From an uncultured Shinella sp. (GTDB taxonomy: Bacteria; Pseudomonadota; Alphaproteobacteria; Rhizobiales; Rhizobiaceae): a DNA stretch of 18,039 bases. Both the position numbers and the translations under genes were made by a program. The DNA is taken from NCBI RefSeq assembly GCF_946479415.1, contig NZ_CAMLFY010000094.1:1-18039 (forward strand). The letters are read 5' to 3'. This document shows positions 1-17,479 of this stretch, piece by piece. The number at the start of each line of letters is the position of its first letter. Position 1 is the stretch's first letter. A model generated the notes under the pieces. The model was not told the origin of the DNA. It did no database searches and was given only the letters and a program-made list of their open reading frames with translations.

Positions 1-116
1 CAACGGGGATTTGGGCGCATGTTTCGTTTCGGGAACAACGAAGCCGAAAAGGCGGACGCCATGGGAACGGGAAAGCTCACCCTTTTTGAAAGTTGTCGTC
101 ACGGGAACCTCGTCCG

Positions 117-1034
117 ATGACGGCGGCGGCGCTTGAACCGATCGCCGAAACCCCCTCCACCTCCCGGCGCCGGGCCTGGATGCGGAGCGAAGAGGCCCGT
201 GGCCTCGCCATGATCTCGCCGACCTTTCTCTATGCGCTGGCGCTGCTCTTCCTCCCTGTTATCATCGTCATCGCCTACAGTTTCTGGACCCAGAACTACC
301 TCGAGATCGACCGCACCTTCACGCTGGAAAACTACCGGCAGGCGCTGACGGAACCGATCTATCGCGACCTCTTCGTCCGCTCGCTGTGGATCTCGCTGAC
401 GGTCAGCGTCGTCACCGTCGTTTTCTCCTATCCGGTCGCCTGGTTCATTTCCTTCCATGGCGGCGTGCACAAGAACCTCTGGCTCTTCCTCATCACCGTG
501 CCCTGCTGGACGAGCTACCTGCTGCGCGTCATGTCGTGGAAGGTCATTCTGGGTTATGGCGGCGTGATGAACACCGGCCTCATCTCGATGGGCCTCATCG
601 ACAAGCCGGTGACCTCGCTGCTCTACAATTCCAACGCCGTCGTCATCACGCTGGTGCACAGCTGGGCGGCCTTCGCCATCCTGCCGATCTACGTCTCGCT
701 GCAAAAGGTCGACCGCACGCTGATCGAAGCCGCGCGCGATCTCGGCGACAGCAGGATCAAGGCGTTCTTCCGTATCACCCTGCCGCTCTCGCTGCCCGGC
801 GTCATCTCCGCCTTCCTGATCGTGATGATCCCGACCGTCGGCGACTATGTGACGCCACGCCTCGTCGGCGGCAAGGACGGTGTGATGATCGCAACCGCCA
901 TTCAGGCGCAGTTCGGCAAGGCCGCCAACTGGCCGCTGGGTGCCGCCCTGTCGGTGACGACCATGGTGCTCGTCTCGCTTTCGGCCGCAGCGATCGTCCT
1001 CGCGCTGAAATTCACCATCCGGAGGATCAAATGA
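117..1034 (+). CDS. ABC transporter permease, spermidine/putrescine type (PotB-like)
   Basis: This 305-residue integral inner-membrane protein is one half of the channel of a binding-protein-dependent importer. About six hydrophobic segments are visible, the first near residues 32-55, after a polar arginine-rich N-terminus of about 28 residues. The cytoplasmic EAA loop that docks to the ATPase reads EAARDLGDSRIKAFFRITLP, followed by hydrophobic segments and the typical PTVGDYVTPRLVGG stretch of the PotB class. ATG at 117 was chosen. A TTG at 93 in the same frame would add eight residues but has a poor ribosome site, and an in-frame stop lies at 87. The gene overlaps the next permease by four bases (ATGA, 1031-1034), so the two are one translational unit. 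The substrate cannot be read from a permease, but the family handles polyamines and related cationic or opine-like compounds. Confidence 0.9.
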   Translation: MTAAALEPIAETPSTSRRRAWMRSEEARGLAMISPTFLYALALLFLPVIIVIAYSFWTQNYLEIDRTFTLENYRQALTEPIYRDLFVRSLWISLTVSVVTVVFSYPVAWFISFHGGVHKNLWLFLITVPCWTSYLLRVMSWKVILGYGGVMNTGLISMGLIDKPVTSLLYNSNAVVITLVHSWAAFAILPIYVSLQKVDRTLIEAARDLGDSRIKAFFRITLPLSLPGVISAFLIVMIPTVGDYVTPRLVGGKDGVMIATAIQAQFGKAANWPLGAALSVTTMVLVSLSAAAIVLALKFTIRRIK

Positions 1035-1855
1035 GCATCCTCACCCAGCGCCTGCGCTTCATTCCGTTCCTGCCCATCTATGTGGCGCTCTATTTCCTGT
1101 TCCTCTACCTGCCGATCCTGCTGCTACCGATCTTCTCCTTCAACAATGCGGCCACCACCACCTTCCCGCTCGCCGGCTTCACGACCAAGTGGTACGCCTC
1201 GCTTTCCGGCAATTCGGTGATGCTGGAAGCGGCGTGGAACAGCCTGATCGTCGGCCTGTCCGTCTCGCTGCTGTCGACCGTGCTCGGCATCTGCGCGGCC
1301 CGTGCCATCACGCGCTATCGTTTCCGTGGCCAGCGCGCCGCCGCCGGCCTCATCATGGCGCCGCTCTTCCTGCCGGAGATCATCGTTGCCGTCTCGCTCC
1401 TGATGATCGTGCTGGCGATGGGGGTGGAACTGTCGCTCGTCACCGTCATCCTCGGCCAGACGGTGTTCTGCGTGCCCTATGCCATGTCGGTGCTGGTCTC
1501 CGGCTTCGAAGGCTTCGACCGCAGCCTGGAGGAAGCCTCCTACGATCTCGGCGAGACCGCCATCGGCACCTTCCGTCGCGTGACGCTGCCGGTGGTGGCG
1601 CCCGCCATCGTCTCCAGCCTGCTCGTCACCTTCACCATCTCGCTCGACGAGTTCATCCTCGCCTTCTTCCTCTCCGGCACCGAGCCGACGCTGCCCGTCT
1701 ATATCTGGGGCCAGCTGCGCTTTGCCGCCAAGCTGCCGGGCGTGCTGGCGCTCGGCACGATCATGCTCGTCGCCTCCATCCTGATGCTCACCCTCGCCGA
1801 AATCCTGCGCCGCCGTGCCGAACGCCGCACGCAGCTGGCGCATGCCCTGCCCTAG
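1031..1855 (+). CDS. ABC transporter permease, spermidine/putrescine type (PotC-like)
   Basis: This 274-residue protein is the second inner-membrane channel subunit and should pair with the permease directly upstream. A GGAGG ribosome site at 1021-1025 sits five bases before the ATG, and the ATG overlaps the previous stop codon. Hydrophobic segments are seen at about residues 11-35, 62-85, 100-130, 130-155, 180-205 and 235-262. The EAA coupling motif reads EEASYDLGETAIGTFRRVTLP, followed by the PotC-type stretch TFTISLDEFILAFFLSG. The TAG stop lies inside the left arm of a 20-bp hairpin (1851-1893), so the hairpin forms across the end of the gene. The distance to the ATPase start is 109 bases, longer than elsewhere in this operon. 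Confidence 0.9.
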   Translation: MSILTQRLRFIPFLPIYVALYFLFLYLPILLLPIFSFNNAATTTFPLAGFTTKWYASLSGNSVMLEAAWNSLIVGLSVSLLSTVLGICAARAITRYRFRGQRAAAGLIMAPLFLPEIIVAVSLLMIVLAMGVELSLVTVILGQTVFCVPYAMSVLVSGFEGFDRSLEEASYDLGETAIGTFRRVTLPVVAPAIVSSLLVTFTISLDEFILAFFLSGTEPTLPVYIWGQLRFAAKLPGVLALGTIMLVASILMLTLAEILRRRAERRTQLAHALP

Positions 1856-1964: not shown

Positions 1965-3074
1965 ATGAGCGACCGCGCTATGATCCAGATCGAAAACGTC
2001 TCGAAATTCTACGGCATCTACAAGGCGCTGGACGATGTCTCGCTGTCGATTGCCGAAGGCGAATTCTTCTCGCTGCTCGGCCCCTCCGGCTGCGGCAAGA
2101 CCACACTTCTCCGCTCCATCGCCGGCTTCGAGAACCCGACGGCGGGCGAGATCTATATCGACGGCGTACCCTCGCTGGCCCTGCCGCCGAACAAGCGTCC
2201 GACCAATATGGTGTTCCAGAGCTACGCCATCTTCCCGCATCTCGATGTCGCGGAAAACGTCGCCTATGGCCTGAAGCGGCTCAAACTCTCGCCCGAAGAA
2301 GAAAAGAAACGCGTCGGCGATGCGCTCGACATGGTCCGCCTCTCCGGCCTCGGCCAGCGCAAGGCGCATGAGCTCTCCGGTGGCCAGCGCCAGCGCGTAG
2401 CGCTCGCCCGCGCGCTTGTGATGCGCCCGAAGGTGCTGCTGCTCGACGAACCGCTTTCGGCGCTCGACAAGAAGCTGCGCGAGGAAATGCAGGTGGAGCT
2501 GCGCACGCTGCAAAAGGCCGTCGGCATCACCTTCATCCTCGTCACGCATGACCAATATGAAGCGCTCGCCCTTTCCGACCGCATCGCCGTGATGTTCGGC
2601 GGCCGCATCGCGCAGATCGCGAGCCCGAAGGAAATCTACCAGCGCCCGCGCACGCGCAAGGTCGCCGATTTCCTTGGCGGCATGAATTTCCTCAAGGCTA
2701 AAGTGCTCGGCGAACAGGGCAATGCCGTCTCCATCGATGCCGCTCGTTTCGGCGCCGTCCAGCTGGAAAAGCCGCAGGGTTTTACCGCCAGCAACGGCCA
2801 CGTCACCGTCGGCATACGCCCGGAGCGCCTGCGGCTGCTCTGGGATGACGACCGCGCGCCGCACGAGCTCGCCGGCCGCATCGAGAACCGCGCCTATTTC
2901 GGCGAGGTCACGCATCTGACGGTCGGCATCGACGGGCTGGAACAGCCGCTCTCAATGGTCGAGACGAACAATTTCGGCGCCGACGACTTGCCGGTCGGCG
3001 CCGAAATCCGCCTTGCCTATGATCCGGATGCATTCGTGCTTCTGGCGGAAGATCCACCTGTCACGCGGGTGTAG
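1965..3074 (+). CDS. ABC transporter ATP-binding protein, spermidine/putrescine type (PotA-like)
   Basis: This 369-residue cytoplasmic ATPase powers the importer made with the two upstream permeases. Walker A GPSGCGKT is at residues 39-46, the Q-loop glutamine at about 85, the ABC signature LSGGQ at 137-141, Walker B VLLLDEP at 157-163, and the H-loop histidine at about 195. The C-terminal part (about 240-369) contains the VGIRPERLRL stretch of the TOBE regulatory domain found in the CUT1/POT group. ATG at 1965 is preceded by AGGAG at 1955-1959 with five bases of spacing. A reading frame open upstream into the repeat element would give a non-conserved N-terminus, so it was not used. After the H-loop the sequence reads HDQYEAL, where HDQEEA is usual in PotA. 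The gene ends nine bases from the convergent DUF982 gene. Confidence 0.92.
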   Translation: MSDRAMIQIENVSKFYGIYKALDDVSLSIAEGEFFSLLGPSGCGKTTLLRSIAGFENPTAGEIYIDGVPSLALPPNKRPTNMVFQSYAIFPHLDVAENVAYGLKRLKLSPEEEKKRVGDALDMVRLSGLGQRKAHELSGGQRQRVALARALVMRPKVLLLDEPLSALDKKLREEMQVELRTLQKAVGITFILVTHDQYEALALSDRIAVMFGGRIAQIASPKEIYQRPRTRKVADFLGGMNFLKAKVLGEQGNAVSIDAARFGAVQLEKPQGFTASNGHVTVGIRPERLRLLWDDDRAPHELAGRIENRAYFGEVTHLTVGIDGLEQPLSMVETNNFGADDLPVGAEIRLAYDPDAFVLLAEDPPVTRV

Positions 3075-3783: not shown

Positions 3784-4866
3784 TCAGTAACCCGATTTGA
3801 TCTTCTCGAATTCGGCGATCATCTTCTGCCGCAGTTCCGTCGGCATCGGCGACTGGAAGAGCGTGTTGGCCACGAAGGCATCGACGTCGGCATAGCCCTT
3901 GTCCTTCAGAATCTTCGGATCGACGGCCGCCATGCCCTTGGCATTGGAATGGCCATAGCCCCAGCTCTCGACCATATAGGCGGCGACAGCGGGATCGGTG
4001 ACGGCATTGAGATAATCATAGGCAAGATCCGGGCTCGCCTCACCCCCCTTCAGGCGCACATAGCCGCAGACCCAGGTCGAAAGGCCTTCCTTGGTGTCCT
4101 TCTTGATGGCGACGGGCTGGCTCTCGGCCTGCAGGGTCGTCGCCGTCTCGTTCCAGGCCCAGGCGAGGTCAACCTCGCCGCTCGCCATCGCCTGGCTCAG
4201 GTCCGTATTGTCCGTCCAGTAGAGCCGCACATTCTTGTGCACCTCGCGCAGGAAGGCGGAGGCCTCCTGGAACTGCGCGTCCGTCATCGTCGTCCAGTCC
4301 TTGAGACCGATGGCGAGACTTGCCAGCGCATAGGCGTCATCGACATTGTCGCCGATCGACACGCGGTCCTTGAACTTGGGATCGGCAAAGGCCTTGAGCG
4401 AGGCGACTTCTTCCGGCTTCACCGTATCGGTGCGATAGGTCAGCACCGTGTTGCCCCATTCGAAGGGAATGAACCAGGCGGTGCCGTCATCCGACGTCAT
4501 CAGGTTCTTCATCGCCTTGAAATTCGGCAGCACATCGTTCCAGGAGGCGAGCTTGGCCGTATCGAGCGGCTCCAGCATGCCCGCTTCGCGCCATTTCACG
4601 ATGCTTTGCGCACAGGGGTGCGCCACATCCGCCTTGAAACCGGACCGCAACTTCTGGAACGCCTCTTCCTCATCCCCGAAGAAGGAGAAATCCGGCGAGC
4701 CGCCATGCTTTTCGCTATAGGCGGGGTGAAAAGCCGGGTCTTCGTAACCGGACCAATCGAAGACGGTCAGGCTATCGGCGGAGAAGGCAGGAAGGGCGGG
4801 TCCGAGGGCAAGGACGGCGGCAAGTGCCGCTGTCGTAAGATACCTGGCCGTGTTCGCAGTCGTCAT
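3784..4866 (-). CDS. Periplasmic polyamine-type substrate-binding protein (PotD/PotF-like)
   Basis: This 360-residue extracellular solute-binding protein should deliver the ligand to the PotBC-like permeases. Residues 1-30 form a Sec signal peptide with an alanine/leucine core and likely cleavage after AFSA, giving a mature start of DSLTVFDWSGYEDPAF. That opening is typical of PotD/PotF-class proteins. The later EWGNTVLTYRTD, WTDNTDLSQAMASGEVDLAWAW and ESWGYGHSNAKG segments correspond to the two-lobe binding cleft of this class. ATG at 4866 follows AAGGAG with six bases of spacing. The open frame continues upstream across the regulator gene but has no protein-like sequence there. The gene lies 29 bases after the TetR gene and forms the end of the minus-strand operon. 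It is separated from its likely permeases by the two small rhizobial genes. Confidence 0.9.
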   Translation of the reverse strand: MTTANTARYLTTAALAAVLALGPALPAFSADSLTVFDWSGYEDPAFHPAYSEKHGGSPDFSFFGDEEEAFQKLRSGFKADVAHPCAQSIVKWREAGMLEPLDTAKLASWNDVLPNFKAMKNLMTSDDGTAWFIPFEWGNTVLTYRTDTVKPEEVASLKAFADPKFKDRVSIGDNVDDAYALASLAIGLKDWTTMTDAQFQEASAFLREVHKNVRLYWTDNTDLSQAMASGEVDLAWAWNETATTLQAESQPVAIKKDTKEGLSTWVCGYVRLKGGEASPDLAYDYLNAVTDPAVAAYMVESWGYGHSNAKGMAAVDPKILKDKGYADVDAFVANTLFQSPMPTELRQKMIAEFEKIKSGY

Positions 4867-4895: not shown

Positions 4896-5606
4896 CTATT
4901 GTGGTTTTGGTCCTTGCAAAGTGAGATGCTTCGGGAAGGCCACGACGACGAAGGCGATGGCCGCCTCCAGCGCTTTTTCCCGCGTCGTGCCGTCGCCCAT
5001 CATCAGGCGCAGCCACAGGCCTTCCAGCATGGCGCAGAGCGACAGCGCCATCGGTTCCGGTTCGTAATCGTAGCCGCCCTCCGCCTTGAGGTCGGCACAG
5101 AGCGCGATCACCGTCTCCTGGTATTTGACGTCGCGCGCGCCGCACAGCGCCTGATAGGTCGGCCGCGACTTGGCCTCGCCCCAGAAGGCACACCAGGCGG
5201 CAAGCTTGCGCTTCGTGCAGATCTTTCGGTCGAAATCCGCATGCACGATGGCCCACAGGCGGCTGGCGACGCTGGGACCGGCCTTTTCGAGCGCCGAATT
5301 CCAGTGGTCGCCATACTCTTCCGACATGAATTGCAGCGTGGCGATGAGCAGGTTTTCCTTGCTCTCGAAGTGGAAGTTGACGATCCCGCGGGACAAGCCC
5401 GCACCATCGGCCACATCCGCCAGCGTCGTGTCGGAATAGCCGCGCTTGGCCAGCGAATCGATCGTCGCCTCGATGAGCTGCTGCCGTCTCGTTTCCTTGG
5501 AAGCCTTGCGGCCCCGCTTCTCGCCGTCACCCGAGCCCTGATCAGCCCCGCCTGCCCGCATCTTCACCGTCACCTTGCCTTTGGGATTCTTCAGCACGAC
5601 CGTCAT
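4896..5606 (-). CDS. TetR family regulator, BetI-like
   Basis: This is a 236-residue DNA-binding repressor. The helix-turn-helix lies at about residues 61-82 (TTLADVADGAGLSRGIVNFHF). The preceding RRQQLIEATID and the ligand-domain stretch AAWCAFWGEAKSRPTYQALC resemble BetI, the choline-sensing TetR regulator. The ATG at 5606 is fixed by a four-base ATGA overlap with the shifted frame of the methyltransferase. A TTG at 5654 and an ATG at 5561 are alternatives. The first 40 residues are a lysine- and glycine-rich extension not usual in TetR proteins. It is co-transcribed with the methyltransferase upstream and the binding protein downstream. The 16-bp palindrome at 6511-6526 in the divergent promoter is its best candidate operator. 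BetI likeness suggests a quaternary or methylated amine as inducer, which is inference. Confidence 0.88.
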   Translation of the reverse strand: MTVVLKNPKGKVTVKMRAGGADQGSGDGEKRGRKASKETRRQQLIEATIDSLAKRGYSDTTLADVADGAGLSRGIVNFHFESKENLLIATLQFMSEEYGDHWNSALEKAGPSVASRLWAIVHADFDRKICTKRKLAAWCAFWGEAKSRPTYQALCGARDVKYQETVIALCADLKAEGGYDYEPEPMALSLCAMLEGLWLRLMMGDGTTREKALEAAIAFVVVAFPKHLTLQGPKPQ

Positions 5607-6422
5607 GGGCGAATTCCCGCGGCCGGCCTGCTTGCGCGCAGATGAGTGGGACAATGCTCCCCGCTGTCAAGAACCTTCTGCATGGCGGTCCAGGTGCGGA
5701 TGTTCTTGGCGACATAGGCCTCGCCGACGGCGACAACAGCCTCCGCATAGAGCGGCCCTTTCAGCCGTTCCAGTTCGCCGTGCGCCACGTCGCGATACCA
5801 GGGCATTGCGGCTCTCGGCGACGCCATCGACGAAGCCCGCCTGCGCCATCGCCCGCAGAGTGCGCTGCGAGGAGGCCATGCCGAAACTCAGCCCTTCAGC
5901 AGCGACATAGTCGTTCATCTCGGCGCTTGGCTCGCCGTCATGCCCGATCAGCCAATCCGAGGCGGCAAGCATGCCGCCTGGCCTCAGCACCCGGAACAGC
6001 TCGGCAAACAACGCCTCCTTGTCCGGCACATGGATCATCGCATCCTTGGAGAAGACGACATCGAATGCGCCGTCATCGAACGGCAGCCGCCCCGGCGGGC
6101 GGGCGACGAACCGCGCGATGGACGAAAGCGCCTGCGCGGCCGCAGCCGCCTTCGCCCGCTCGATGACGGGTTGCTCGACGTCATAGCCGACGATCTCCGC
6201 CGGACGGTAGGTCCTCGCGATATGCAACGTGATGCCACCGGCGCCGCAGCCGAAATCGAGAATGGACTTGCCCGTAAGATCGATGCCCGCAAGCACGCGA
6301 TCCACCTCCGCCGGGCCGCCAGGCGAAAGATAGCCCTCGCCCCACATCACGCCGAGGAAGCGGATCGCCGCCTCGTCATATTCCGCTTCCGTAGCTGCAC
6401 CGTTATCGACTGCCGCCGTCAT
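5603..6422 (-). pseudogene. SAM-dependent methyltransferase, phosphoethanolamine N-methyltransferase-like, frameshifted
   Basis: The gene starts at ATG 6422 after AGGGA. The first 207 residues carry YLSPGG at 31-36, the SAM-binding LDFGCGAGG at 55-63, DAMIH at 127-131 and LRPGGML at 146-152. This order matches the PMT family (phosphoethanolamine N-methyltransferases). Tyr15 and His131 fall where the catalytic Tyr-His pair of Plasmodium PMT lies, by hand alignment. Near 5801-5803 the frame breaks. The original frame runs into junk and stops at 5667, while the -1 frame continues the family-like sequence WYRDVAHGELERLKGP to DSGEHCPTHLR and stops at 5603. Removing one C (minus strand) restores RNAWYR and gives 272 residues, close to the family length. 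The restored stop overlaps the TetR start as ATGA, which argues that the gene was intact recently. It may be a true pseudogene, a sequencing error or a programmed slip. Confidence 0.8.
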
Positions 6423-6474
6423 GGCTTCCCTGCTCTTGCGGCCCCATGGCCGGTGCGCTTTCCATTGGATCGAA

Positions 6475-6502
6475 ATTCTAGCGCATAATCAGACGATTGC
6501 AA
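6475..6502 (-). promoter_or_regulatory. Candidate sigma-70-type promoter for the minus-strand methyltransferase operon
   Basis: Read on the minus strand, TTGCAA (6497-6502) and TAGAAT (6475-6480) are separated by 16 bases. Both hexamers are close to the -35 and -10 consensus. The start codon of the methyltransferase is 52 bases past the -10 box. TTGCAA is its own reverse complement, so it could also contribute to a plus-strand promoter, but I found no convincing -10 box on that side. Confidence 0.5.
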
Positions 6503-6510
6503 GATACTTG

Positions 6511-6526
6511 CTGAATGATCATTCAG
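6511..6526. promoter_or_regulatory. 16-bp palindrome, candidate TetR-type operator
   Basis: CTGAATGATCATTCAG is a perfect palindrome in the 163-base divergent region. It lies 59 bases before the first flavoprotein start and just upstream of the candidate minus-strand -35 box. The TGAATG...CATTCA pattern is shared by several known TetR-family operators, such as that of Bacillus FadR. A second dyad, GCAAG-ATA-CTTGC (6499-6511), abuts it. The BetI-like regulator encoded in the minus-strand operon is the natural ligand-responsive partner. Binding here could control both operons at once. Confidence 0.6.
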
Positions 6527-6585
6527 AATATCTGGACAGCATTTTGCTTTTGATGCAGCTTTTAGAAACAAGGGAGACATCAAAA

Positions 6586-8205
6586 ATGCAAAAGTACGAT
6601 GCCCTGATTGTCGGCGGCGGCCACAACGGCCTGGTGACGGCCTGTTACCTCCAGCGCGCCGGCCTCAACGTTCTCGTCGTGGAAAAGAACGGCTGGGTCG
6701 GCGGCGCGGCCACCAGCCGCGAGCTGACGCCCGGCTTCCTCTATTCCAACTGTTCCTATGTCTGCTCGCTGTTTAGGCCGGAGATCATGCGCGATCTCGA
6801 ACTGCCGAAACACGGGTTGCAGGTGATCTCCTATGAAGGCGGCGCGGTCTTCACCCGCGACGGCGACTACCTTGCCTCCTACCGCGACCACGACAGCCAC
6901 CGCCGCGAATTCGCCCGCTATTCCAAGCGCGATGCGGAAGCCTATGAGCGCTATGCCCGCGACGTGACGCGCCAGTGCCGCTTCATCCAGCCGCTCCTGA
7001 TGCGCACCGCCCCCGACCCGTTCGGTTTCCGCCCGCGCGACATTTCCGAGCTGCTCTATCTGGCGAAAAAATTCGGCGAATTCAGCCCGCACGAAATGGC
7101 CGAGACGCTGCGCTTCTGGACCATGTCGATCTCCGACTTCCTCGACGAATATTTCGAGACCGACGTCATCAAGGCCTATCTGGCGCTGTCCGGTATCATC
7201 GGCACCGCACTCGGCCCGATGTCGCCCGGCACGGCCTATGTGCTGCTGCACCATTATATGGGCGAGGTCGACGGCTCGGTCGGCGCTTGGGGCTATGCCC
7301 GTGGCGGCATGGGCGCGGTCACGCAGGCCCTGTCCCGCTCCTTCCAGGCCTCCGGCGGCACGATCCGCACGGATGCGGAGGTCTCGAAGATTTTAACGCG
7401 CGGCGGCCGCACCACCGGCGTCGTGCTGGCCAATGGCGATGAGGTGCGCGCCGATCTCGTCGTCTCCAATGCCGATGTGAAGCGCACCTTCCTGAAGCTT
7501 GTCGAGGAACAGGACCTGCCCGGCGACTTCGTGCATCGCGTCAAGCACTTCAAGATGCGCGGCTCCTCCGGCAAGGTGAACATCGCGCTCGACAGCTTGC
7601 CGGAGTTTCCGGCGCTACCCGAGGGCTCGAACTGCATTCGCGGCGACATGCATTTCACCGACAGTATCGAGCGCATGGAACGTGGCTACGACGACTGGAA
7701 GGCCGGGCGCTGGTCCGCGGATCCCTTCCTCGACATGATGATCCCCACCCTGCTCGACCCGACCATGACCTCGCCCGGCAAACATTTCATGAGCTGTTTC
7801 GTGCAATATTGCCCGCCCAAGGTGGAGGGCCGTGACTGGACGGATGCCGACCGCGATGCCTTCGCCGAGACCGTCATCAGCCAGATCGCCGACTATTCGC
7901 CTGGTTTCCGCGACCGCATCGTGCATATGGAAGTGCGCACGCCACGCGAGATCGAGGCGGAAGTCGGCTTGACCGAGGGCAATATCTTCCAGGGTGAACT
8001 CACCTTCGATCAGCTTCTCTTCAACCGGCCGGTTCCCGGCTATGCGCAATACCGCAGCCCCATCCATGGGCTCTATATGTGCGGCTCCTCCACCCATCCG
8101 GGCGGCGGAGTGATGGGCGCGCCCGGCCGCAACGCAGCCGCCGAAATCCTGCGCGACCTCAAGCGTGCCCCCGAACAGATGAGCAAAGCCCATGACGTCA
8201 TTTGA
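6586..8205 (+). CDS. FAD-dependent oxidoreductase, phytoene desaturase/PYROXD2-like (first of two)
   Basis: This is a 539-residue cytoplasmic flavoprotein of the amine oxidase/CrtI-like superfamily. The N-terminal Rossmann motif IVGGGHNGLVTACYLQRAG (about 8-26) with VVEKNGWVGGAATSRE binds FAD. The C-terminal cofactor-binding motif GLYMCGSSTHPGGGVMG is near residues 495-511. ATG at 6586 was chosen because AGGGAGA lies eight bases upstream and the FAD motif starts a few residues later. The frame is open back to 6421, but that would run through the promoter region. In this superfamily such enzymes oxidise C-N or C-C bonds. No carotenoid genes are nearby, so a desaturase role in carotenoid synthesis is unlikely. 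It heads an operon with a second flavoprotein, a GcvT-fold protein and a small protein, overlapping the next gene by 14 bases. Confidence 0.88.
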   Translation: MQKYDALIVGGGHNGLVTACYLQRAGLNVLVVEKNGWVGGAATSRELTPGFLYSNCSYVCSLFRPEIMRDLELPKHGLQVISYEGGAVFTRDGDYLASYRDHDSHRREFARYSKRDAEAYERYARDVTRQCRFIQPLLMRTAPDPFGFRPRDISELLYLAKKFGEFSPHEMAETLRFWTMSISDFLDEYFETDVIKAYLALSGIIGTALGPMSPGTAYVLLHHYMGEVDGSVGAWGYARGGMGAVTQALSRSFQASGGTIRTDAEVSKILTRGGRTTGVVLANGDEVRADLVVSNADVKRTFLKLVEEQDLPGDFVHRVKHFKMRGSSGKVNIALDSLPEFPALPEGSNCIRGDMHFTDSIERMERGYDDWKAGRWSADPFLDMMIPTLLDPTMTSPGKHFMSCFVQYCPPKVEGRDWTDADRDAFAETVISQIADYSPGFRDRIVHMEVRTPREIEAEVGLTEGNIFQGELTFDQLLFNRPVPGYAQYRSPIHGLYMCGSSTHPGGGVMGAPGRNAAAEILRDLKRAPEQMSKAHDVI

Positions 8206-9748
8206 TGCCATCGTAATCGGTGCCGGCCACAACGGCCTTGCCGCCGCCACCCGCCTCGCCAAGGGCGGTCGCCGCGTTCTGGTGCTGGAAGCGGCAAACG
8301 AACCGGGCGGCGCCACCCGCGGCCGCGAATTCGCCCCCGGCTTCCGCTCCGCCGGCCTCGCCCATCTCGTCAACCGGCTGGATGCCGAGGTCGCCAAGGA
8401 TATCGGCCTCGACCTCAAGGGCGATGAGAACCTGCTGCCGACAACGGTGCTTGACGGCTCCGGCAGGGCGCTCACACTCCACGGCGCCTATGGCGAAAGC
8501 ATCGACGGCGTCTCCACCGAGGAAGCCGCCGCCTTTTCGGCGATGCGCAAGAAACTCATTTTCCAGGCAAGCATCCTCAAACGCTTCCTCCGCCGCCCGC
8601 CGCCGCAGATCGGCGCGGTCTCGCTCGGCGATCTCTCGACACTCGCCGGCGCCGGGCTCAGCCTGATCCGCAAGGGTCGCAGCGAGGGCCGCGATTTCCT
8701 GCGCATGCTCTTGATGAACGTCGCCGATGTCACCGACGAATACCTGACCGACGACCGCCTCAAGGGTCTTCTCGCCTTCGACGCCACGCTCGGCATCCAT
8801 CTCGGCCCGCGTTCACCGACCTCCCTGCTCGGCCTCTATTATCGCCTGACTGGCGACGTCGCCGGCCAGACCGGCGGCCAGTTCGTACCGGCGGGCGGCA
8901 TGGCGAGCATCGCCCCCGCCTTCCGGCGCGCGGCGGAAAAAGCAGGCGTCACCATCCGCTGCGCGACACCCGTCGCCCGCATCCTCGCCGATCGCGGCCG
9001 CGCCAGCGGCGTCGTTCTCGGCGACGGAACGCAGATCACCGCCACCGTCGTCGTTTCGGCCGTGCATCCGCAGACGACGTTCCTGCACCTCGTCGATCCC
9101 GCCGAAAGCGGCACCGGCTTCGTGCGCTCGGTGAAGAACGTGCGCAGCCACGGCAATGTCGCCAAGCTGGACCTTGCGCTGGACCGCATGCCCGACTTCA
9201 CCGGCCTGCCGCTGGAAGCCCGCAACGGCCGCATCGTGCTGGTCCGCTCGAAAGAACAGGTCGAGACGGCCTTCAACCCGGCGAAATACGGCGAGTTCTC
9301 CACCGATCCGGTCATGGAGATCACGCTGCCGAGCCTCGCCGACCCCTCCCTCGCCCCATCCGGCGCCTGCACGCTCTCCGCACTCGTGCAATACGCGCCC
9401 TACCGCCTCAAGGCCGGCTGGGAGCACGGCAAACCGGCCTTCCTCAAGATCGTTCTGGAAACACTGGAGCGTCACGCGCCCGGTATCGGCAAATCCATCC
9501 TCGCGGCCAATCTGATGACGCCGGTCGATATCGAAGCGGAATACAATCTGCCCGGCGGCCATTGGCATCACGGCGAGTTGCAGGCCGACCAGCTGCTGGT
9601 CAACCGCCCGACGGGGGCGGCTTCCGGCTACAAGACGCCGATCGAGGGCCTCTATCTCGCCAGCGCCGGCGCGCATCCCGGCGGCGGCATTTCCGGCCTG
9701 CCGGGCTGGAACGCCGCGCGCCACATCCTTTCGGGAGCGACAGCATGA
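8192..9748 (+). CDS. FAD-dependent oxidoreductase, phytoene desaturase/PYROXD2-like (second of two)
   Basis: This 518-residue flavoprotein comes from the same superfamily as its upstream neighbour. It carries IVIGAGHNGLAAATRLAKGG (about 7-26) with LEAANEPGGATRGREF, and ends with GLYLASAGAHPGGGISGLPG near 488-507. The two proteins share the C-terminal pattern IEAE..L..G....GEL..DQLL.NRP before the glycine-rich motif, but differ widely elsewhere, so they are old paralogues rather than a recent duplication. ATG at 8192 overlaps the preceding gene by 14 bases and has no clear ribosome site, which suggests translational coupling. The stop overlaps the next start (ATGA, 9745-9748). Tight coupling of two distinct members suggests either a heteromeric enzyme or two successive oxidation steps. 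The substrate is unknown. Confidence 0.88.
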   Translation: MTSFDAIVIGAGHNGLAAATRLAKGGRRVLVLEAANEPGGATRGREFAPGFRSAGLAHLVNRLDAEVAKDIGLDLKGDENLLPTTVLDGSGRALTLHGAYGESIDGVSTEEAAAFSAMRKKLIFQASILKRFLRRPPPQIGAVSLGDLSTLAGAGLSLIRKGRSEGRDFLRMLLMNVADVTDEYLTDDRLKGLLAFDATLGIHLGPRSPTSLLGLYYRLTGDVAGQTGGQFVPAGGMASIAPAFRRAAEKAGVTIRCATPVARILADRGRASGVVLGDGTQITATVVVSAVHPQTTFLHLVDPAESGTGFVRSVKNVRSHGNVAKLDLALDRMPDFTGLPLEARNGRIVLVRSKEQVETAFNPAKYGEFSTDPVMEITLPSLADPSLAPSGACTLSALVQYAPYRLKAGWEHGKPAFLKIVLETLERHAPGIGKSILAANLMTPVDIEAEYNLPGGHWHHGELQADQLLVNRPTGAASGYKTPIEGLYLASAGAHPGGGISGLPGWNAARHILSGATA

Positions 9749-10977
9749 ACGCCATGACGAAATCCGCCGCCGACCTGCGCCGTGCCGCCCGCGACCATAT
9801 CCGCGTGCCCCGCCTCGAAACGCCGTTCCACGAGCGGCTGATGGCGATCAGCGAGGTCAACGACTGGTACAACTGGGCCGGCTACAAGGCGCCGCATTCG
9901 CTGACCGACGGCGAACTCGAATATTTCGCCATCCGCTCCACCGCCGCGCTGTTCGACATTTCGCCCATGGTGAAATACCGCATCGCCGGCCCGGATGCGG
10001 AACGCTACCTCAACCGCCTGACGCTGCGCGACGTGCGAAAACTCGGCGTCAACCGCGTGCACTACACCGCCTGGTGCGACGACCATGGCCATGTGCTCGA
10101 CGACGGCACGCTGTTCCGTCTCGGCGAACAGGAATTCCGTCTCTGCTGCCAGGAACGCCACCTGCCCTGGCTGCTCGACAGCGCTTTCGGCTTCACCGTC
10201 GACATCCGCGAGGAGACGGAGGAAATCGCCGGCCTCGCACTGCAAGGCCCGACCAGCTACGCCGTGCTGCGCGATGCCGGTTTCGCCGGTGTAGAACGGC
10301 TGAAACCCTTCGACATCGCCACCTTCCCGCATGAGGGCGGCGAGGTCGCGATCTCGCGCACCGGCTTTACCGGCGATCTCGGCTACGAACTCTTCATGCC
10401 GCGCGCCAGGGCACTCTCGCTCTGGGACCGGCTGTGGGTGGCCGGCGAGCTTCATGCCATCCGCGCCATCGGCTATGGCGCGCTGAACCAGACGCGCATC
10501 GAGGCCGGCTTCATCGTCGCCAATGCGGATTTCATGACGGCCGAGGCGGCCCTGCGCGCCGACCGCGTGCGCATGCCGGACGAAATCGGCCTCGACTGGC
10601 TGGTCGATCCGGACAAGCCGAACTTCAACGGCCGCCGCGCCATTCTCGATGCGCGGCGGAATCAGACTCTCAAGCACATCCTGGTCGGCCTTGAAATCGA
10701 AGGGAATATTTCCGCCGAACATGCCATCGTCTACCACCGGCAGAAGCATGAAGCCGGCCTCGTCACCGCTGCGATCTGGTCGCCGACGGCCAAGCGCAAC
10801 ATCGCCATTGCCAGCCTGGAGCGGCCCTACGGCTCGAAGTTCACCGAAGACCTTTGGGTCGAGATCTATGCGATGCGCGAGCTGAAATACCAGAAGATGA
10901 TGAAGCGGGCGAAGATCGTGCCCCGCCCCTTCGTCAAGCTCGCCCGCCGCACGACGACCCCGCCGGGCCTCAAATAG
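9745..10977 (+). CDS. GcvT-fold aminomethyltransferase-like protein (folate-dependent demethylase type)
   Basis: This 410-residue protein has the fold of the glycine-cleavage T protein and of folate-dependent demethylases such as DmdA and the dimethylglycine/sarcosine oxidase C-terminal domains. Visible marks are ALFDISPMVKYRIAGPDAERYL (about 68-89), the HVLDDGTLFRL stretch with the aspartate pair at 119-120 that aligns with the conserved VIDD of GcvT, LALQGPTSYAVL (164-175), SRTGFTGDLGYELF (204-217) and IGYGALNQTRIEAG (242-255). An N-terminal extension of about 45 residues precedes the core. The usual role would be to take a methyl or methylene group from an amine to tetrahydrofolate. No GcvH or GcvP partner is present, so a glycine-cleavage role is unlikely. 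It starts by ATGA overlap with the second flavoprotein and abuts the following small gene. Confidence 0.87.
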   Translation: MNAMTKSAADLRRAARDHIRVPRLETPFHERLMAISEVNDWYNWAGYKAPHSLTDGELEYFAIRSTAALFDISPMVKYRIAGPDAERYLNRLTLRDVRKLGVNRVHYTAWCDDHGHVLDDGTLFRLGEQEFRLCCQERHLPWLLDSAFGFTVDIREETEEIAGLALQGPTSYAVLRDAGFAGVERLKPFDIATFPHEGGEVAISRTGFTGDLGYELFMPRARALSLWDRLWVAGELHAIRAIGYGALNQTRIEAGFIVANADFMTAEAALRADRVRMPDEIGLDWLVDPDKPNFNGRRAILDARRNQTLKHILVGLEIEGNISAEHAIVYHRQKHEAGLVTAAIWSPTAKRNIAIASLERPYGSKFTEDLWVEIYAMRELKYQKMMKRAKIVPRPFVKLARRTTTPPGLK

Positions 10978-11226
10978 ATGGACGAGGAAACCCGCCGCAA
11001 CTGGGAGATCATCGCCATGCCGCCTGGAGCCGAATGGTCCGGGCGCGCACGCTATGCGGCGGCGATGTATTTCTGCCAGCGCGGCGACATGGCGCCGGAG
11101 GTGCTCGAAATCTACCGCATCTGTTCGCGGCTCGATGCGGAGGACCCGGTCTCCGTGCTGCGCCGCTGGCAGGTCGGCGCGGAATGGATCGCGAAGCTGG
11201 AAGCCTATCGCGGCCGATCAGTGTGA
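10978..11226 (+). CDS. Small protein of 82 residues, unrecognised, coupled to the GcvT-like gene
   Basis: I do not recognise this protein. Its ATG follows the upstream TAG with no gap (TAGATG at 10975-10980), so ribosomes finishing the GcvT-like protein would probably restart here. Codon use with high GC at third positions matches the operon. The product is soluble, with tryptophans in NWEII, EWSGRARYAAAMYF, RRWQVGAEWIAK and two cysteines (about residues 33 and 49). Most of it looks helical. It lacks a signal peptide, membrane segment or metal-binding cluster. Position at the end of a catabolic operon suggests an accessory subunit or assembly factor of one of the upstream enzymes. Its last nine bases overlap the end of the convergent AcrR-like gene. 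Confidence 0.75.
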   Translation: MDEETRRNWEIIAMPPGAEWSGRARYAAAMYFCQRGDMAPEVLEIYRICSRLDAEDPVSVLRRWQVGAEWIAKLEAYRGRSV

Positions 11227-11841
11227 CGGCGTGGGTCCCGAATAGGTGGCAAAGAGCCGGCGCAGCGCATCCTTGCCTTCGCTGGCGATATCGAACCGGC
11301 GTCCGAACAGCAGCCATTCAGAGCACAAACCCTTGATGACCCAGCGCAGCATGGAGGCGGCCGAACGGGGCGTCCAGGCCCCGCCGAGCTTGCCCTGCCC
11401 CTGCGCCTTCGCGAAGGCCGCTTCCAGCGCCTGCATGTGCTCGTCGTCGAGATCGTTCTGCCGCTCGGAGATGACAGCGAATTCGCCGGTATTGTCGCAG
11501 CGCAGCAGAATGGAGAGGATGCGCTGGCGGTGCTCGTCCTCGGCCAGCAACTCCAGCCATTCGCGGCCAACCCGCTCGAGCACGCCGAAGACATCGGCAT
11601 TCTCGGCCTCCAGCTCGCGGGCGATCAGCTCTTCCTGCGGCATGGGCAGCGAATTGTAGAGTTCCAGCACCAGATCCGCCCTATTGGCGAAGTGCCAGTA
11701 GATGGCGCCGCGGGTGACCCCCGCGGCGCGTGCCACATCCTCCATCGAGGCATGGGCGACACCTTTTTCGTAGAAGACCTTTTCGGCCGCCAGCAGGATC
11801 TGCTGGCGGGTTTCCTTGGCCTCTGCCTTGGTCCGGCGCAT
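11218..11841 (-). CDS. TetR family repressor of the RND efflux operon (AcrR-like)
   Basis: This 207-residue repressor has its helix-turn-helix at about residues 31-51. The stretch AAGVTRGAIYWHF is the same as I recall for E. coli AcrR, and the opening RRTKAEAKETRQQIL is also AcrR-like. The C-terminal ligand domain, with WVIKGLCSEWLL near the end, is expected to bind structurally varied drugs. ATG at 11841 starts six bases after the pump gene stop, with GGAG overlapping that stop region. It is therefore the last gene of the efflux operon rather than divergent from it, so it would repress its own synthesis through the promoter near 16390. It ends convergently with a nine-base overlap with the 82-residue gene. 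Confidence 0.9.
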   Translation of the reverse strand: MRRTKAEAKETRQQILLAAEKVFYEKGVAHASMEDVARAAGVTRGAIYWHFANRADLVLELYNSLPMPQEELIARELEAENADVFGVLERVGREWLELLAEDEHRQRILSILLRCDNTGEFAVISERQNDLDDEHMQALEAAFAKAQGQGKLGGAWTPRSAASMLRWVIKGLCSEWLLFGRRFDIASEGKDALRRLFATYSGPTPSH

Positions 11842-11847
11842 GGCGGC

Positions 11848-14800
11848 TTACTCCGCCGGGCTGGTTGCAGCCGGCGCCGGCTCCTCCTTCTTTTTCCCGT
11901 AGCCGAACAGCTTCATCACGAAGACGAAGAAGATCGGCACGAAGAAGATGGCGAGCACGGTCGCGGTGATCATGCCGCCCATGACGCCGGTACCGATGGC
12001 GCGCTGGCTGCCCGAGCTTGCGCCGGTCGCGATCGCCAGCGGCAGAACGCCGAGCGTGAAGGCGAGCGAGGTCATCAGGATCGGGCGGAAGCGCAGGTGG
12101 CAGGCCTCGATGGTCGCATCGATCAGCGACTTGCCAGCCTCCATCTGCTCCTTGGCGAACTCGATGATCAGGATCGCGTTTTTCGCCGAAAGGCCGATGA
12201 TCGCGATCAGGCCCACCTTGAAGTACACGTCGTTCGACATGTCGCGCATGGTGACGGCCAGCACCGCGCCGATCACGCCGAGCGGCACCACGAGGATGAC
12301 CGCAAACGGGATCGACCAGCTTTCATAGAGGGCAGCAAGGCACAGGAAGACCAGGAGGATCGACAGGCCGACAAGGATCGGCGCCTGCGAACCGGACTGG
12401 ATTTCCTGCAGCGACTGACCCGTCCACTCGTAGCCGAAGCCCGGCGGCAGCTGGGCGGCAAGCCGCTCCATTTCGGCGATCGCATCACCGGAAGAGAAGC
12501 CCGGCTTGGTCTCGCCGCTGAGGCGCATGGACGGATAGCCGTTGTAGCCAACCGTCTGCGTCGGCGCCATCATCCACTCCGCGGTCGCAAAGGCCGAGAG
12601 CGGAACCATGCCGCCGCTCGAATTGCGCACGTTGAGTTTCAGAAGGTCGGCCACCTGCATGCGTTCGTTCTGGTCCGCCTGCACCGTCACGCGCTGCATG
12701 CGCCCGGCATTCGGGAAGTCGTTGACATAAGTCGAGCCGAGATTGGTCGAGATCGTCGAATTGATATCGGCGAAGGTCACACCGAAGGTGTTGGCCTTCT
12801 CGCGATCGATCACGACATTGACCTGGGCCGCATCCGGCATGCCCTCGACGCGAACGCCCGTCACGACATTGCTCTGGGCCGCAAGGCCGATGAGCTGCCC
12901 CGTCGCGGCCGACAGCGCCTGCTGGCCGAGACCACCGCGATCCTGCAGACGGAACGAGAAGCCGCCCGTCGTGCCGAGACCCTGGATCGGCGGCGGCGAC
13001 AGCGCGAAGCTGATCGCATCCTTGATCTGGCTCATCGCCATGCTGGCACGCCCGGCAATCGACTGCGCGGAGTTTTCAGGCCCGCGCTCGCTCCAGTCCT
13101 TCAGCGTCACGAAGGCAAGGCCGGCATTCTGACCCGCCCCGAAGAACGAGAAACCGTTGATGCCGACGATCGTGTTGACGGCGGATTCCTGACCGAAGAT
13201 CTTTTCGGTCTGGGCCAGCACTTCGTCCGTACGGTGGCCGGTGGCTTCCGAAGGCAGCTGCATCATGACGATGACGAAACCCTGGTCCTCGTCCGGCAGG
13301 AACGACGACGGCAGCTTCATGAACATGTAGCCGAGGCCCGCGAGGATGGCGATATAGATCACCATGAAGCGGCCCGTCCGGCGGATCAGCCAGCTGACCG
13401 TGCCGCTGTAACCGCGCGACGAGCGGTCGAAACCGCGGTTGAACCAGCCGAAGAAACCACGCTTGGTGTGGTGGTGCCCCTTCGGAACCTGCTTGAGGAA
13501 GCTGCCCGCGAGTGCCGGCGTCAGCGACAAAGCGAGGAAGGCCGAGAACAGGATCGAGACGACCATCGTCAGCGAGAACTGCTGGTAGATGACGCCGACG
13601 GCACCGGGGAAAAAGCCCATCGGAATGAACACCGAGGCGAGCACCAGCGTGATGCCGATGACGGCACCGGTGATCTGCTTCATCGCCTTTCGGGTCGCCT
13701 CCTTCGGCGGCAGCCCCTCTTCCGACATGATACGCTCGACGTTTTCGACGACGATGATTGCGTCGTCAACGAGGATGCCGATGGCGAGCACCATGGCGAA
13801 CATGGTGAGCACGTTGATCGAGAAGCCCATGGCGAGCATGACGGCGCAGGTGCCGAGCAGGGCGACGGGAACGACGAGCGTCGGGATGATCGTGTAGCGA
13901 ATGTTCTGCAGGAACAGGAACATCACAAGGAAGACGAGACCGACAGCTTCTAGCAGCGTGTGCAGAACCTTTTCGATCGACACCTTCACGAAGGGCGAGG
14001 TGTCATAGGGGATCGAATATTCGAGGCCCGGCGGGAAGAACTTCGACAGTTCGTCCATGCGCGCCTTGATCGCTTCCGAGGTCGCCATGGCGTTGCCGCT
14101 CGGCGAAAGCTGAACGCCGATGGCGGCGGACGGCTTGCCGTTGAGGCGCGTCGAGAACGAATAGGTTTCGCCGCCCACTTCGACGCGGGCAACGTCACGC
14201 AGGCGCACGGCCGAACCATCCGCATTGGCGCGCAGCACGATGGCGCCGAACTCTTCCGGCGTCGTCAGCTGGCCCTTGATGTTGACGGGGGCCGCGATCT
14301 GCTGGGTGATCGGGTTCGGCTGGGCACCGATGGAACCGGCCGCGATCTGGGCGTTCTGCGCCTGCACGGCGGCGGTGATATCCGCAGCCGTCAGATTGAG
14401 ACCGAGCATCTTGGCGGGATCGAGCCAGACGCGCATCGAACGTTGGGTTGCAAACAGCTGCGCACGGCCGACGCCGGGCACGCGCTGCACTTCCGAGAGA
14501 ACGTTGCGGTTGAGATAGTCGCCGAGGCTGATCGCATCCATCGAGCCGTCGGTGGAGGTGAGCGAGACGATCAGCAGGAAGCCGGAGCCGGCTTCCTCGA
14601 CCTGCACGCCCTGGCGGCGCACGGAATCGGGAAGACGCGGTTCGACGCGGCTGATGCGGTTCTGCACATCGACCGAAGCCTGCGACGGGTCGGTGCCCGG
14701 CGCGAAGGTGATGTTGATTTCGGCCGAACCCGAAGCGCTCGAGGTCGATTCGAAATACAGCATGCCTTCCACGCCGTTCAGCTCATCCTCGATGAGCTTG

Positions 14801-14985
14801 GTCACGCTCTGGTAGGTGTCCTGCGAGGACGCGCCGGCATAGGAGGTCGAGACCGAAATCTGCGGCGGCGCGACGTTCGGATATTGCGAGATCGGCAGCA
14901 ACGGGATGGAGATGGCGCCGGCAATCATGATGAAGATCGCCACGACCCAGGCGAAAATCGGCCTGTCGATAAAGAAACTGGGCAT
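11848..14985 (-). CDS. RND multidrug efflux pump, HAE1 family (AcrB/BepE/SmeB-like)
   Basis: This 1045-residue inner-membrane proton-drug antiporter is close in length to E. coli AcrB (1049). The N-terminus FFIDRPIFAWVVAIFIM is the standard first helix of the family. The proton-relay pair lies in GILVDDAIIVVENVERIM with Asp407 and Asp408, the same numbers as AcrB, and the relay lysine is in GLSAKNAILIIEF at about 935. Two large periplasmic loops follow helices 1 and 7, as expected for a trimeric pump. ATG at 14985 is preceded by AAGGA overlapping the stop of the adaptor gene, 11 bases away. The adaptor upstream and repressor downstream make it one operon. No TolC-like channel gene is in the window, so one must be supplied from elsewhere. 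A long plus-strand open frame opposite this gene is a codon shadow. Confidence 0.95.
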   Translation of the reverse strand: MPSFFIDRPIFAWVVAIFIMIAGAISIPLLPISQYPNVAPPQISVSTSYAGASSQDTYQSVTKLIEDELNGVEGMLYFESTSSASGSAEINITFAPGTDPSQASVDVQNRISRVEPRLPDSVRRQGVQVEEAGSGFLLIVSLTSTDGSMDAISLGDYLNRNVLSEVQRVPGVGRAQLFATQRSMRVWLDPAKMLGLNLTAADITAAVQAQNAQIAAGSIGAQPNPITQQIAAPVNIKGQLTTPEEFGAIVLRANADGSAVRLRDVARVEVGGETYSFSTRLNGKPSAAIGVQLSPSGNAMATSEAIKARMDELSKFFPPGLEYSIPYDTSPFVKVSIEKVLHTLLEAVGLVFLVMFLFLQNIRYTIIPTLVVPVALLGTCAVMLAMGFSINVLTMFAMVLAIGILVDDAIIVVENVERIMSEEGLPPKEATRKAMKQITGAVIGITLVLASVFIPMGFFPGAVGVIYQQFSLTMVVSILFSAFLALSLTPALAGSFLKQVPKGHHHTKRGFFGWFNRGFDRSSRGYSGTVSWLIRRTGRFMVIYIAILAGLGYMFMKLPSSFLPDEDQGFVIVMMQLPSEATGHRTDEVLAQTEKIFGQESAVNTIVGINGFSFFGAGQNAGLAFVTLKDWSERGPENSAQSIAGRASMAMSQIKDAISFALSPPPIQGLGTTGGFSFRLQDRGGLGQQALSAATGQLIGLAAQSNVVTGVRVEGMPDAAQVNVVIDREKANTFGVTFADINSTISTNLGSTYVNDFPNAGRMQRVTVQADQNERMQVADLLKLNVRNSSGGMVPLSAFATAEWMMAPTQTVGYNGYPSMRLSGETKPGFSSGDAIAEMERLAAQLPPGFGYEWTGQSLQEIQSGSQAPILVGLSILLVFLCLAALYESWSIPFAVILVVPLGVIGAVLAVTMRDMSNDVYFKVGLIAIIGLSAKNAILIIEFAKEQMEAGKSLIDATIEACHLRFRPILMTSLAFTLGVLPLAIATGASSGSQRAIGTGVMGGMITATVLAIFFVPIFFVFVMKLFGYGKKKEEPAPAATSPAE

Positions 14986-14996
14986 CGTTGCGGTCC

Positions 14997-16289: not shown

Positions 16290-16343
16290 GGGTTCTTCCA
16301 TAGGCGATGCCGGCAAAGGGGCGGCGGGTGCTGAAAACGAAGA

Positions 16344-16371
16344 GATGCGGTGGCCGAAGGACCACCGCATC
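16344..16371 (-). promoter_or_regulatory. Strong hairpin in the leader of the efflux operon
   Basis: GATGCGGTGG (16344-16353) and CCACCGCATC (16362-16371) form a perfect 10-bp stem. In minus-strand RNA a G-U and a C-G pair extend it to 12 bp with a four-base loop. On the minus strand it is followed by TCTCTTCGTTTTC. It lies between the predicted transcription start and the adaptor gene, so it would sit at the extreme 5' end of the efflux message as a stabiliser or attenuator. It could instead terminate readthrough from the upstream sugar ABC operon, whose last gene ends at 16478. Confidence 0.55.
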
Positions 16372-16373
16372 AC

Positions 16374-16397
16374 AACATACAAACAGGGCTGTATGTT
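16374..16397. promoter_or_regulatory. AcrR-type operator at the efflux promoter
   Basis: Perfect 8-bp inverted arms AACATACA and TGTATGTT are separated by eight bases, 24 bp in all. The E. coli AcrR operator has the same layout with arms TACATACA and TGTATGTA, so only the outermost base of each arm differs. The site overlaps the predicted -10 box of the efflux promoter, which fits repression by the AcrR-like protein encoded last in this operon. Confidence 0.75.
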
Positions 16398-16416
16398 AAA
16401 TCCTGACGTTTGACAA
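16388..16416 (-). promoter_or_regulatory. Candidate promoter of the efflux operon
   Basis: Read on the minus strand, TTGTCA (16411-16416) is a good -35 box and TACAGC (16388-16393) is a weak -10 box at 17 bases. The weak -10 lies inside the AcrR-type operator. A start near 16381 is predicted, leaving a leader of about 90 bases. The region 16290-16477 holds this promoter, the operator and the leader hairpin, and no further gene. Confidence 0.45.
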
Positions 16417-16477
16417 TCGTAGATCACGCCCGAAACGGCCGCAATCCGTCCCGATCACGGATTCGTGATGAGGGACC

Positions 16478-17479
<1,002 letters not shown>

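Follow-up and report, generated by a model that had tools for sequence, protein, structure and literature searches.

The window analyzed here, that is, the whole 18,039-nt stretch of contig NZ_CAMLFY010000094.1 (assembly GCF_946479415.1) from an uncultured Shinella sp., carries two divergent operons that most likely serve the breakdown of an amine with a trimethylammonium group or other N-methylation, a reading to which we assign a probability of roughly 70%. Its genes run in the order PotB-PotC-PotA (importer, forward strand), solute-binding protein (SBP), TetR regulator and methyltransferase (reverse strand), and Fl1-Fl2-GcvT-P82 (forward strand), followed by a TetR gene and resistance-nodulation-division (RND) efflux genes on the reverse strand (Table 1). 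Fl1 and Fl2 are paralogous flavoproteins, GcvT is a free-standing protein of that fold, and P82 is a protein of 82 residues. A preliminary description of this DNA had proposed that the set takes up an N-methylated or quaternary amine and breaks it down. The proposal was supported, and it was strengthened by a Rieske oxygenase and a class III aminotransferase found linked to the operons in related genomes; the substrate and the reactions are still predictions.

Conservation of the Gene Set

The best 80 of 178 confirmed relatives of the GcvT protein in one genome collection defined 80 loci for comparison, among which that of Shinella curvata matched the window best. SBP, TetR, Fl1, Fl2, GcvT, and P82 occurred all together in 76 of them, so that the conserved neighborhood set beforehand as a test of the proposal does exist. 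Contig ends truncate three of the four incomplete loci (L036, L048, and L055). In the fourth, the Mesorhizobium locus L051, TetR and Fl2 appear to have no Fl1 between them (at ~7.8–10 kb). P82 was present in 79 of the 80 loci, and Fl1 was 77–99% identical to that of the window in 77 of the 80.

The preliminary description had also known of no characterized pathway with this gene set, and searches of open-license PMC literature turned up no paper on either the set or the pathway. As far as these searches reach, the combination of a PYROXD2/CrtI-type flavoprotein pair, a free-standing GcvT, P82, a class III aminotransferase, and an altered PotD-like importer is undescribed.

A Linked Rieske Oxygenase and Class III Aminotransferase

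In S. curvata, a class III aminotransferase gene is divergent from PotB, its longest open reading frame (ORF) starting ~75 bp beyond the position equivalent to the left edge of the window. A few kb farther on, past a D-Ala-D-Ala carboxypeptidase-like gene, comes the gene for a Rieske oxygenase. For 25 of the 80 loci, whole genomes were searched for both genes. An aminotransferase match lay within 14 kb of GcvT in every one (the S. curvata protein passes PRK07036 with 682.6 bits vs. a cut-off of 618), and all 25 operon genomes also contained a Rieske oxygenase, as one copy at threshold with at least 71% identity. The idea that the aminotransferase and a monoamine oxidase (MAO)-like enzyme replace one another was dropped, given that loci L165 and L166 carry both and that the aminotransferase was near the operon in all 25 genomes. 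The MAO-like flavoprotein gene itself lies between PotA and SBP in 52 of the 80 loci (e.g., L065:1383-2693) and is absent from the Shinella loci.

Co-occurrence was assessed in an evenly drawn sample of 218 genomes of the family, with GcvT and Rieske matches counted at E ≤ 1e-120. GcvT was found in 50 genomes and the Rieske gene in 57: both were present in 50, GcvT only in none, the Rieske gene only in seven, and neither in 161. Among the 50 genomes with both, 44 had them on the same contig, at a distance of no more than 20 kb in 37, no more than 30 kb in 41, and 35, 37, and 346 kb in the other three; six had them on different contigs.

The best PDB match of the Rieske protein was CntA, a carnitine monooxygenase (122.6 bits); next came 3vca and 4qup, both of which we take to be stachydrine demethylase (4qup is titled "Monoxygenase; demethylase"). 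Its best NCBIfam model was a glycine betaine monooxygenase subunit, with the GbcA cut-off missed (136.2 vs. 670 bits). The protein from an S. curvata stretch (L163) carries the Group V motif, C-X-H...C-X-X-H plus a bridging carboxylate before the iron-site His, as a match of motif rather than of structure. The motif NWKSVRDVDNEGYHVAMAH is identical in eight of 11 sequences of this type compared, the other three differing at one to three positions. A Glu stands at the place of CntA E205, and the Cys-X-X-Cys pair is missing, the L163 protein reading NEGYHVAMAH where Rsk1 of the more distant locus L124 has NECLHCPGIH; both E205 and this pair, which marks some Group V members, are described in an excerpt of PMC10952381.

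The Flavoprotein Pair and the GcvT-Fold Protein

Fl1 and Fl2 share 32.7% identity. The DAO domain (PF01266) scored above its cut-off in both (61.8 in Fl1; 56.7 in Fl2, where it is the top Pfam match), with the best stretch N-terminal. Their best NCBIfam models were CrtO and CrtI, of which CrtO (NF045689, cut-off 1000) was not reached (311.6 bits for Fl1 and 189.7 for Fl2). Against a provisional sequence of human PYROXD2, identity was 39.9% for Fl1 (552 residues, 389 bits) and 32.0% for Fl2 (544 residues, 235 bits). Several close relatives of Fl1 carry the UniRef name "Pyridine nucleotide-disulfide oxidoreductase domain-" (name endings not visible). Other alphaproteobacterial relatives score like Fl1 against this PYROXD2 sequence, with or without GcvT neighbors, so the claim made here is one of family likeness and not of orthology. 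Relatives of Fl1 were found in 31 of 190 genomes in a sample of the class (E ≤ 1e-60) and in 33 of 299 in a phylum-wide search (E ≤ 1e-100).

The GcvT protein passes both Pfam domains of its fold (GCV_T, 188.3 vs. 25.6; GCV_T_C, 33.8 vs. 25.9 bits), and alignment with 1woo, 1yx2, and trimethylamine N-oxide (TMAO) demethylase showed that it has the conserved Asp of the "DD" motif, a residue that presumably sits near the folate. It did not reach the glycine cleavage T-protein equivalog (TIGR00528, 155.6 vs. 235.85 bits) or the dimethylsulfoniopropionate (DMSP) demethylase DmdA (NF009133, 109.9 vs. 410 bits). Its best NCBIfam model, TMAO demethylase (NF053776), was also not reached (253 vs. 1100 bits), with the match confined to profile positions 375–734 of 763; the closest solved relative by sequence is the C-terminal, folate-binding part of that enzyme (PDB 9q59 and 9q5a).

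The Gene Set in More Distant Genomes

A set of 20 more distant stretches, 16 around Fl1 matches and four around P82 matches, was examined for the same genes. Fl1, Fl2, and GcvT stood in a row in nine of the 16 (L128–L133 and L140–L142), with a class III aminotransferase near the row in L128, L129, L131, and L132. One further stretch (L095) ends inside Fl2 and is too short to judge. All six complete stretches whose Fl1 is at least 52% identical to the window's have the row. It is also present in L124, obtained through its P82 match, in company with a pair of Rieske genes, an importer of PotF type, and a fusion of P82 to a cupin.

The seven genomes with the Rieske gene only (L176–L182) all have a class III aminotransferase near it (in L178, a different class member). 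Five of their stretches (L176–L178, L181, and L182) also hold an importer, and five (L177, L178, and L180–L182) hold a TetR relative, with weak matches in L180 and L181; the methyltransferase is present in four (L176–L178 and L182) and P82 in two (L177 and L182). In L180, whose genome has no operon-type GcvT at the sample threshold, an MttB-family gene, two DAO+GcvT fusions resembling dimethylglycine dehydrogenase, and another class III aminotransferase stand in a row (L180:11930-19688) beside the Rieske/aminotransferase pair. L181 carries a PF01593 amine oxidase, and L176 and L177 carry a beta-lactamase-fold hydrolase.

Importer, Regulator, and Methyltransferase

Aligned to PotD, the SBP keeps the aromatic residues W36, Y39, W236, and W263, but E36, D168, and D257 are replaced by G, N, and C, and E171 by D. 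These pocket states are common to all 78 aligned rows (77 loci plus the window) except N172, found in 76. A pocket of this kind would be better suited to a monocation or zwitterion than to a diamine.

The Fl1 start lies at 6586 and not at 6421 as in the mechanical ORF, a 539-aa database protein from Shinella sp. M27 matching 100%, and the divergent control region shared by the two operons is thus 6423–6585. Alignment of the window with 15 related loci showed ~90 bp of it to be highly conserved around the perfect palindrome CTGAATGATCATTCAG, which is probably the operator of the TetR regulator. A scan allowing up to three mismatches found one match in the window, with 0.04 expected and one present in eight of 200 shuffles. 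Forms of TGAAT-(0 or 4 bases)-ATTCA were present in 26 of the 80 loci, and the distant locus L131 has two copies of the TGAAT/ATTCA motif upstream of Fl1; the motif was not found in L163, the S. curvata stretch with the gap between PotB and the aminotransferase.

The methyltransferase gene is split across frames in the window, its first part running from 6422 to ~5805 and the remainder from ~5803 to ~5597 in another frame; in the ORF as listed (5667–6422) the last ~45 residues are a frame-shifted tail. Among the 80 loci it was present in 68, in 67 of these in a single frame, and was not found in 12, two of which (L036 and L055) are cut by contig ends. The break in the window points either to a frameshift of recent origin or to faulty assembly. 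In the PDB, the protein best matches phosphomethylethanolamine N-methyltransferase 2 (5wp5).

P82

P82 had no match in Pfam, NCBIfam, or PHROGs, and although 1504 relatives were found, a Pfam domain was seen in none of the 120 listed. Its AlphaFold2 model has five helices with a mean predicted local distance difference test (pLDDT) score of 90.2 and no clear PDB match. A P82-like motif, P-x-G-x-x-x-S-G-x-x-R-Y-x-A-A-M, stands at the N-terminus of DddQ-like cupins in L124–L127, loci that hold two Rieske oxygenases and a PotF-type importer. Genome counts for P82 are lower bounds, the query being short and only part of the candidates scored: at least one of 385 genomes over the class (the centre genome itself) and at least 13 of 297 over the order, four weak ones being the fused cupin forms. 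As L177 and L182 show, P82 can accompany the Rieske/aminotransferase set where GcvT is absent. We suggest that it is a subunit or substrate-handling protein of the pathway.

Layout of the Window

Coordinates are collected in Table 1. The two divergent operons around one control region were as first described, except that the binding protein falls outside the range originally given for the system (4896–11226); the domains or ORFs of the methyltransferase, the TetR regulator with its BetI-type domain, the flavoproteins, the GcvT fold, and the 82-aa protein were all recovered, with the methyltransferase frame broken. Fl1 and Fl2 overlap by 14 bp and Fl2 and GcvT by 4 bp, and GcvT and P82 directly adjoin. 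The PotA start is inferred, the mechanical ORF starting at 1899.

Table 1. Features of the window and, in the last line, the fused cupin forms of P82 in more distant loci.
Feature	Position	Strand	Basis
PotB-like ABC permease	93..1034	+	PF00528; NCBIfam PotB 203.1 bits vs. cut-off 348
PotC-like ABC permease	1031..1855	+	PF00528; NCBIfam PotC 189.4 bits vs. cut-off 326
PotA-like ABC ATPase	1965..3074	+	PF00005 + TOBE_2; TIGR01187 352.5 vs. cut-off 355.6
PotD-like SBP, pocket changed but conserved	3784..4860	-	PF13416; alignment with PotD structures
BetI-like TetR-family regulator	4896..5654	-	PF00440 + PF13977 (BetI-type C domain)
S-adenosylmethionine-dependent N-methyltransferase-like gene, frame broken near 5804	5597..6422	-	Methyltransf_11; best PDB match 5wp5
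Divergent control region, conserved part	6468..6560		Window aligned with 15 loci; limits set by eye
16-bp perfect palindrome, probable TetR operator	6511..6526		Motif scan
Fl1, PYROXD2/CrtI-type flavoprotein, 539 aa	6586..8205	+	PF01593, PF01266, PF13450
Fl2, flavoprotein paralogous to Fl1, 518 aa	8192..9748	+	PF01266, PF01593
GcvT-fold protein, 410 aa, proposed folate-dependent one-carbon acceptor	9745..10977	+	PF01571 + PF08669
P82, helical 82-aa protein, unnamed family	10978..11226	+	Without Pfam, NCBIfam, or PHROGs match
P82-like domain fused to DddQ-like (DMSP lyase family) cupin	L124:9929-10771, L125:9207-10082, L126:9921-10820, L127:9934-10791

Directly after P82, on the reverse strand (11218–16427), lie a TetR regulator, an AcrB-family pump (PF00873), and a membrane-fusion partner assigned by position only; in the Shinella loci, and in some that are closely related, relatives of these genes adjoin the operon. 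The right edge (16478–18039, reverse strand) holds an ABC ATPase with a TOBE domain, followed by the end of an oxidoreductase that weakly matches the GFO/IDH/MocA type. In 35 of the 80 loci, mostly Mesorhizobium, P82 is followed by a gene on the opposite strand (e.g., L069:11612-12682) without an NCBIfam match, which we take to be an M19-type dipeptidase.

Proposed Pathway and Alternatives

The gene content, the co-occurrence, and the changing partners of these genes point to catabolism of an N-methyl amine in which the Rieske enzyme acts first, the flavin- and folate-linked proteins later, and the transaminase last. From these observations, together with the conservation, the family likenesses, and the palindrome, we infer each catalytic step, the order of the steps, the target of the regulator, and the role of P82. 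The PotD-like SBP and PotBCA would import the methylated amine, from which the Rieske monooxygenase, encoded a few kb left of the window in the nearest relative, would remove the first methyl group. Fl1 and Fl2 would oxidize the N-methyl groups that are left, giving iminium or formaldehyde, and the GcvT-fold protein would capture the one-carbon unit on tetrahydrofolate (THF) as 5,10-methylene-THF, so that the three polypeptides would together form an equivalent of dimethylglycine dehydrogenase. Transamination of the primary amine released in this way would fall to the class III aminotransferase (an MAO-like enzyme is also encoded in many relatives), with TetR presumably acting as a repressor at the palindrome between the two operons and P82 serving as an accessory protein.

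Several observations weigh against this pathway. Neither the aminotransferase gene nor the Rieske gene is within the window, both being known from S. curvata and other relatives; four of the 25 genomes searched (G001, G678, G687, and G689) have a better-scoring aminotransferase elsewhere, and no Rieske reductase was noticed beside the locus. The family labels BetI, PotD, and CrtI, which the preliminary description had used, hold as likenesses below the cut-offs of those families: CrtI (TIGR02734, cut-off 238.1) was reached by neither Fl1 (130.5 bits) nor Fl2 (116.6), the regulator scored below both BetI models (TIGR03384, 119.5 vs. 201.3; NF001978, 113.7 vs. 118 bits), and PotD was missed widely (82.6 vs. 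582), as were the other PotABCD equivalogs (PotA, 371.8 vs. 482; PotB and PotC, Table 1). The palindrome forms were not found in 54 of the 80 loci. Among the distant stretches, six of the 16 drawn from Fl1 matches (L134–L139) have neither Fl2 nor GcvT beside Fl1, and L125–L127, over the length examined, show an importer and Rieske genes but no pair of flavoproteins. Among the genes examined in five of the seven Rieske-only stretches, no replacement demethylase was identified (L179 spans only 5.2 kb). The methyltransferase, present in 68 of 80 loci, is chemically opposite to demethylation and has no assigned role in the pathway. Finally, the co-occurrence of GcvT and the Rieske gene has a Fisher's p of 4e-42, a value that ignores shared ancestry.

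The alternative that survives best, though we consider it unlikely, is that the flavoproteins and GcvT act on another bond, either an S- or O-methyl group as in DmdA, LigM, and DesA or a C-C/C-N bond to be dehydrogenated, while the amine genes serve another part of the molecule. GcvT-fold proteins do include the DMSP, vanillate, and syringate demethylases (weak matches here), CrtI-type enzymes are classically C-C desaturases, and a DMSP-lyase-like cupin carries the P82-like domain in L124–L127. The GcvT protein nevertheless scores 253 bits with TMAO demethylase vs. 110 with DmdA, it co-occurs with a Rieske oxygenase of quaternary-amine type and an aminotransferase, and in L180 the same place is occupied by DAO+GcvT fusions, all of which argue against this alternative.

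Less probable again is a locus for polyamines or diamines of the putrescine/spermidine type, with the flavoproteins as amine oxidases. Such import and breakdown is suggested by the PotABCD-like transporter, by the MAO/putrescine-oxidase-like gene in 52 of 80 loci, and by the putrescine and polyamine enzymes among class III aminotransferases, but was set back by the pocket comparison, in which three of the four acidic residues of PotD are replaced in 76–78 of 78 rows. Nor are GcvT and Rieske genes known to take part in the ordinary breakdown of polyamines. At a marginally lower probability, the system could cycle or make a methylated osmolyte, the N-methyltransferase producing a quaternary amine that the other proteins degrade or salvage. 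The methyltransferase is nearest in the PDB to phosphoethanolamine N-methyltransferases and recurs beyond the 68 loci, in L128, L176–L178, and L182–L184; however, it was not found in 12 of 80 loci and is broken in the window, while the uptake and demethylation genes stay. Inherited synteny without common function is very improbable: the 80 loci are almost all from Rhizobiales and the co-occurrence test is uncorrected for phylogeny, yet the genes stay together despite changed order or partners (L027, L124, L128, and L176–L182), and GcvT and the Rieske gene also co-occur in the six genomes with different contigs and the three with 35–346 kb between them.

If N-methyl amine catabolism is the correct reading, a pathway with its GcvT in 50 of 218 sampled family genomes would allow bacteria of soil and roots to recover one-carbon units from methylated amines and return them to folate.

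Comparison With Known Systems

The likeness of Fl1 to human PYROXD2 (~40% identity to the provisional sequence) connects the operon with a protein that differs in being mitochondrial and whose precise function is little known, according to an excerpt of PMC8777681 that also ties trimethylamine to PYROXD2 variants by association. An excerpt of a second study attributes to a PYROXD2 missense variant 50% of the variance in N6-methyllysine and 48% of that in N6,N6-dimethyllysine in one cohort (PMC8109053). Together, this likeness and the variant links to methyl-lysines in blood make an N-demethylase role for the PYROXD2 family testable. More broadly, and tentatively, since we place it at somewhat under even odds, PYROXD2-family flavoproteins may be N-methylamine dehydrogenases: Fl1-Fl2-GcvT would then amount to a split form of dimethylglycine dehydrogenase that uses a different flavoprotein family, human PYROXD2 would perform the same chemistry on N6-methyl- and N6,N6-dimethyl-lysine, and the rhizobial operon would encode a dedicated trimethylammonium pathway (possibly for N6-trimethyllysine itself or the betaine of an omega-amino acid) whose last step is transamination and to which P82 contributes a new accessory domain.

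With dimethylglycine and sarcosine dehydrogenases the operon would share FAD-dependent oxidation of an N-methyl group and a GcvT domain that accepts the one-carbon unit. Those enzymes are DAO and GcvT fusions, whereas here the parts are separate polypeptides and the flavoproteins are two paralogs with CrtO/CrtI as best NCBIfam models. TMAO demethylase (Tdm) differs in its N-terminal part, which has no counterpart in the GcvT protein. The Rieske oxygenase resembles the Group V enzymes CntA and stachydrine demethylase Stc2, CntA being its best PDB match with a Glu at the E205 place, but the Shinella type is without the Cys-X-X-Cys pair.

The route from glycine betaine to glycine begins with the Rieske monooxygenase GbcAB and continues with demethylation of dimethylglycine and sarcosine. 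The proposed pathway would follow the same plan, a Rieske enzyme for the first methyl group and flavin- and folate-linked enzymes for later ones, and differs in its PYROXD2/CrtI-type flavoproteins, adjoining class III aminotransferase, PotD-type import, and a Rieske protein below the GbcA cut-off. The chemistry itself would be of a known kind; it is the enzyme set that is undescribed in the literature searched.

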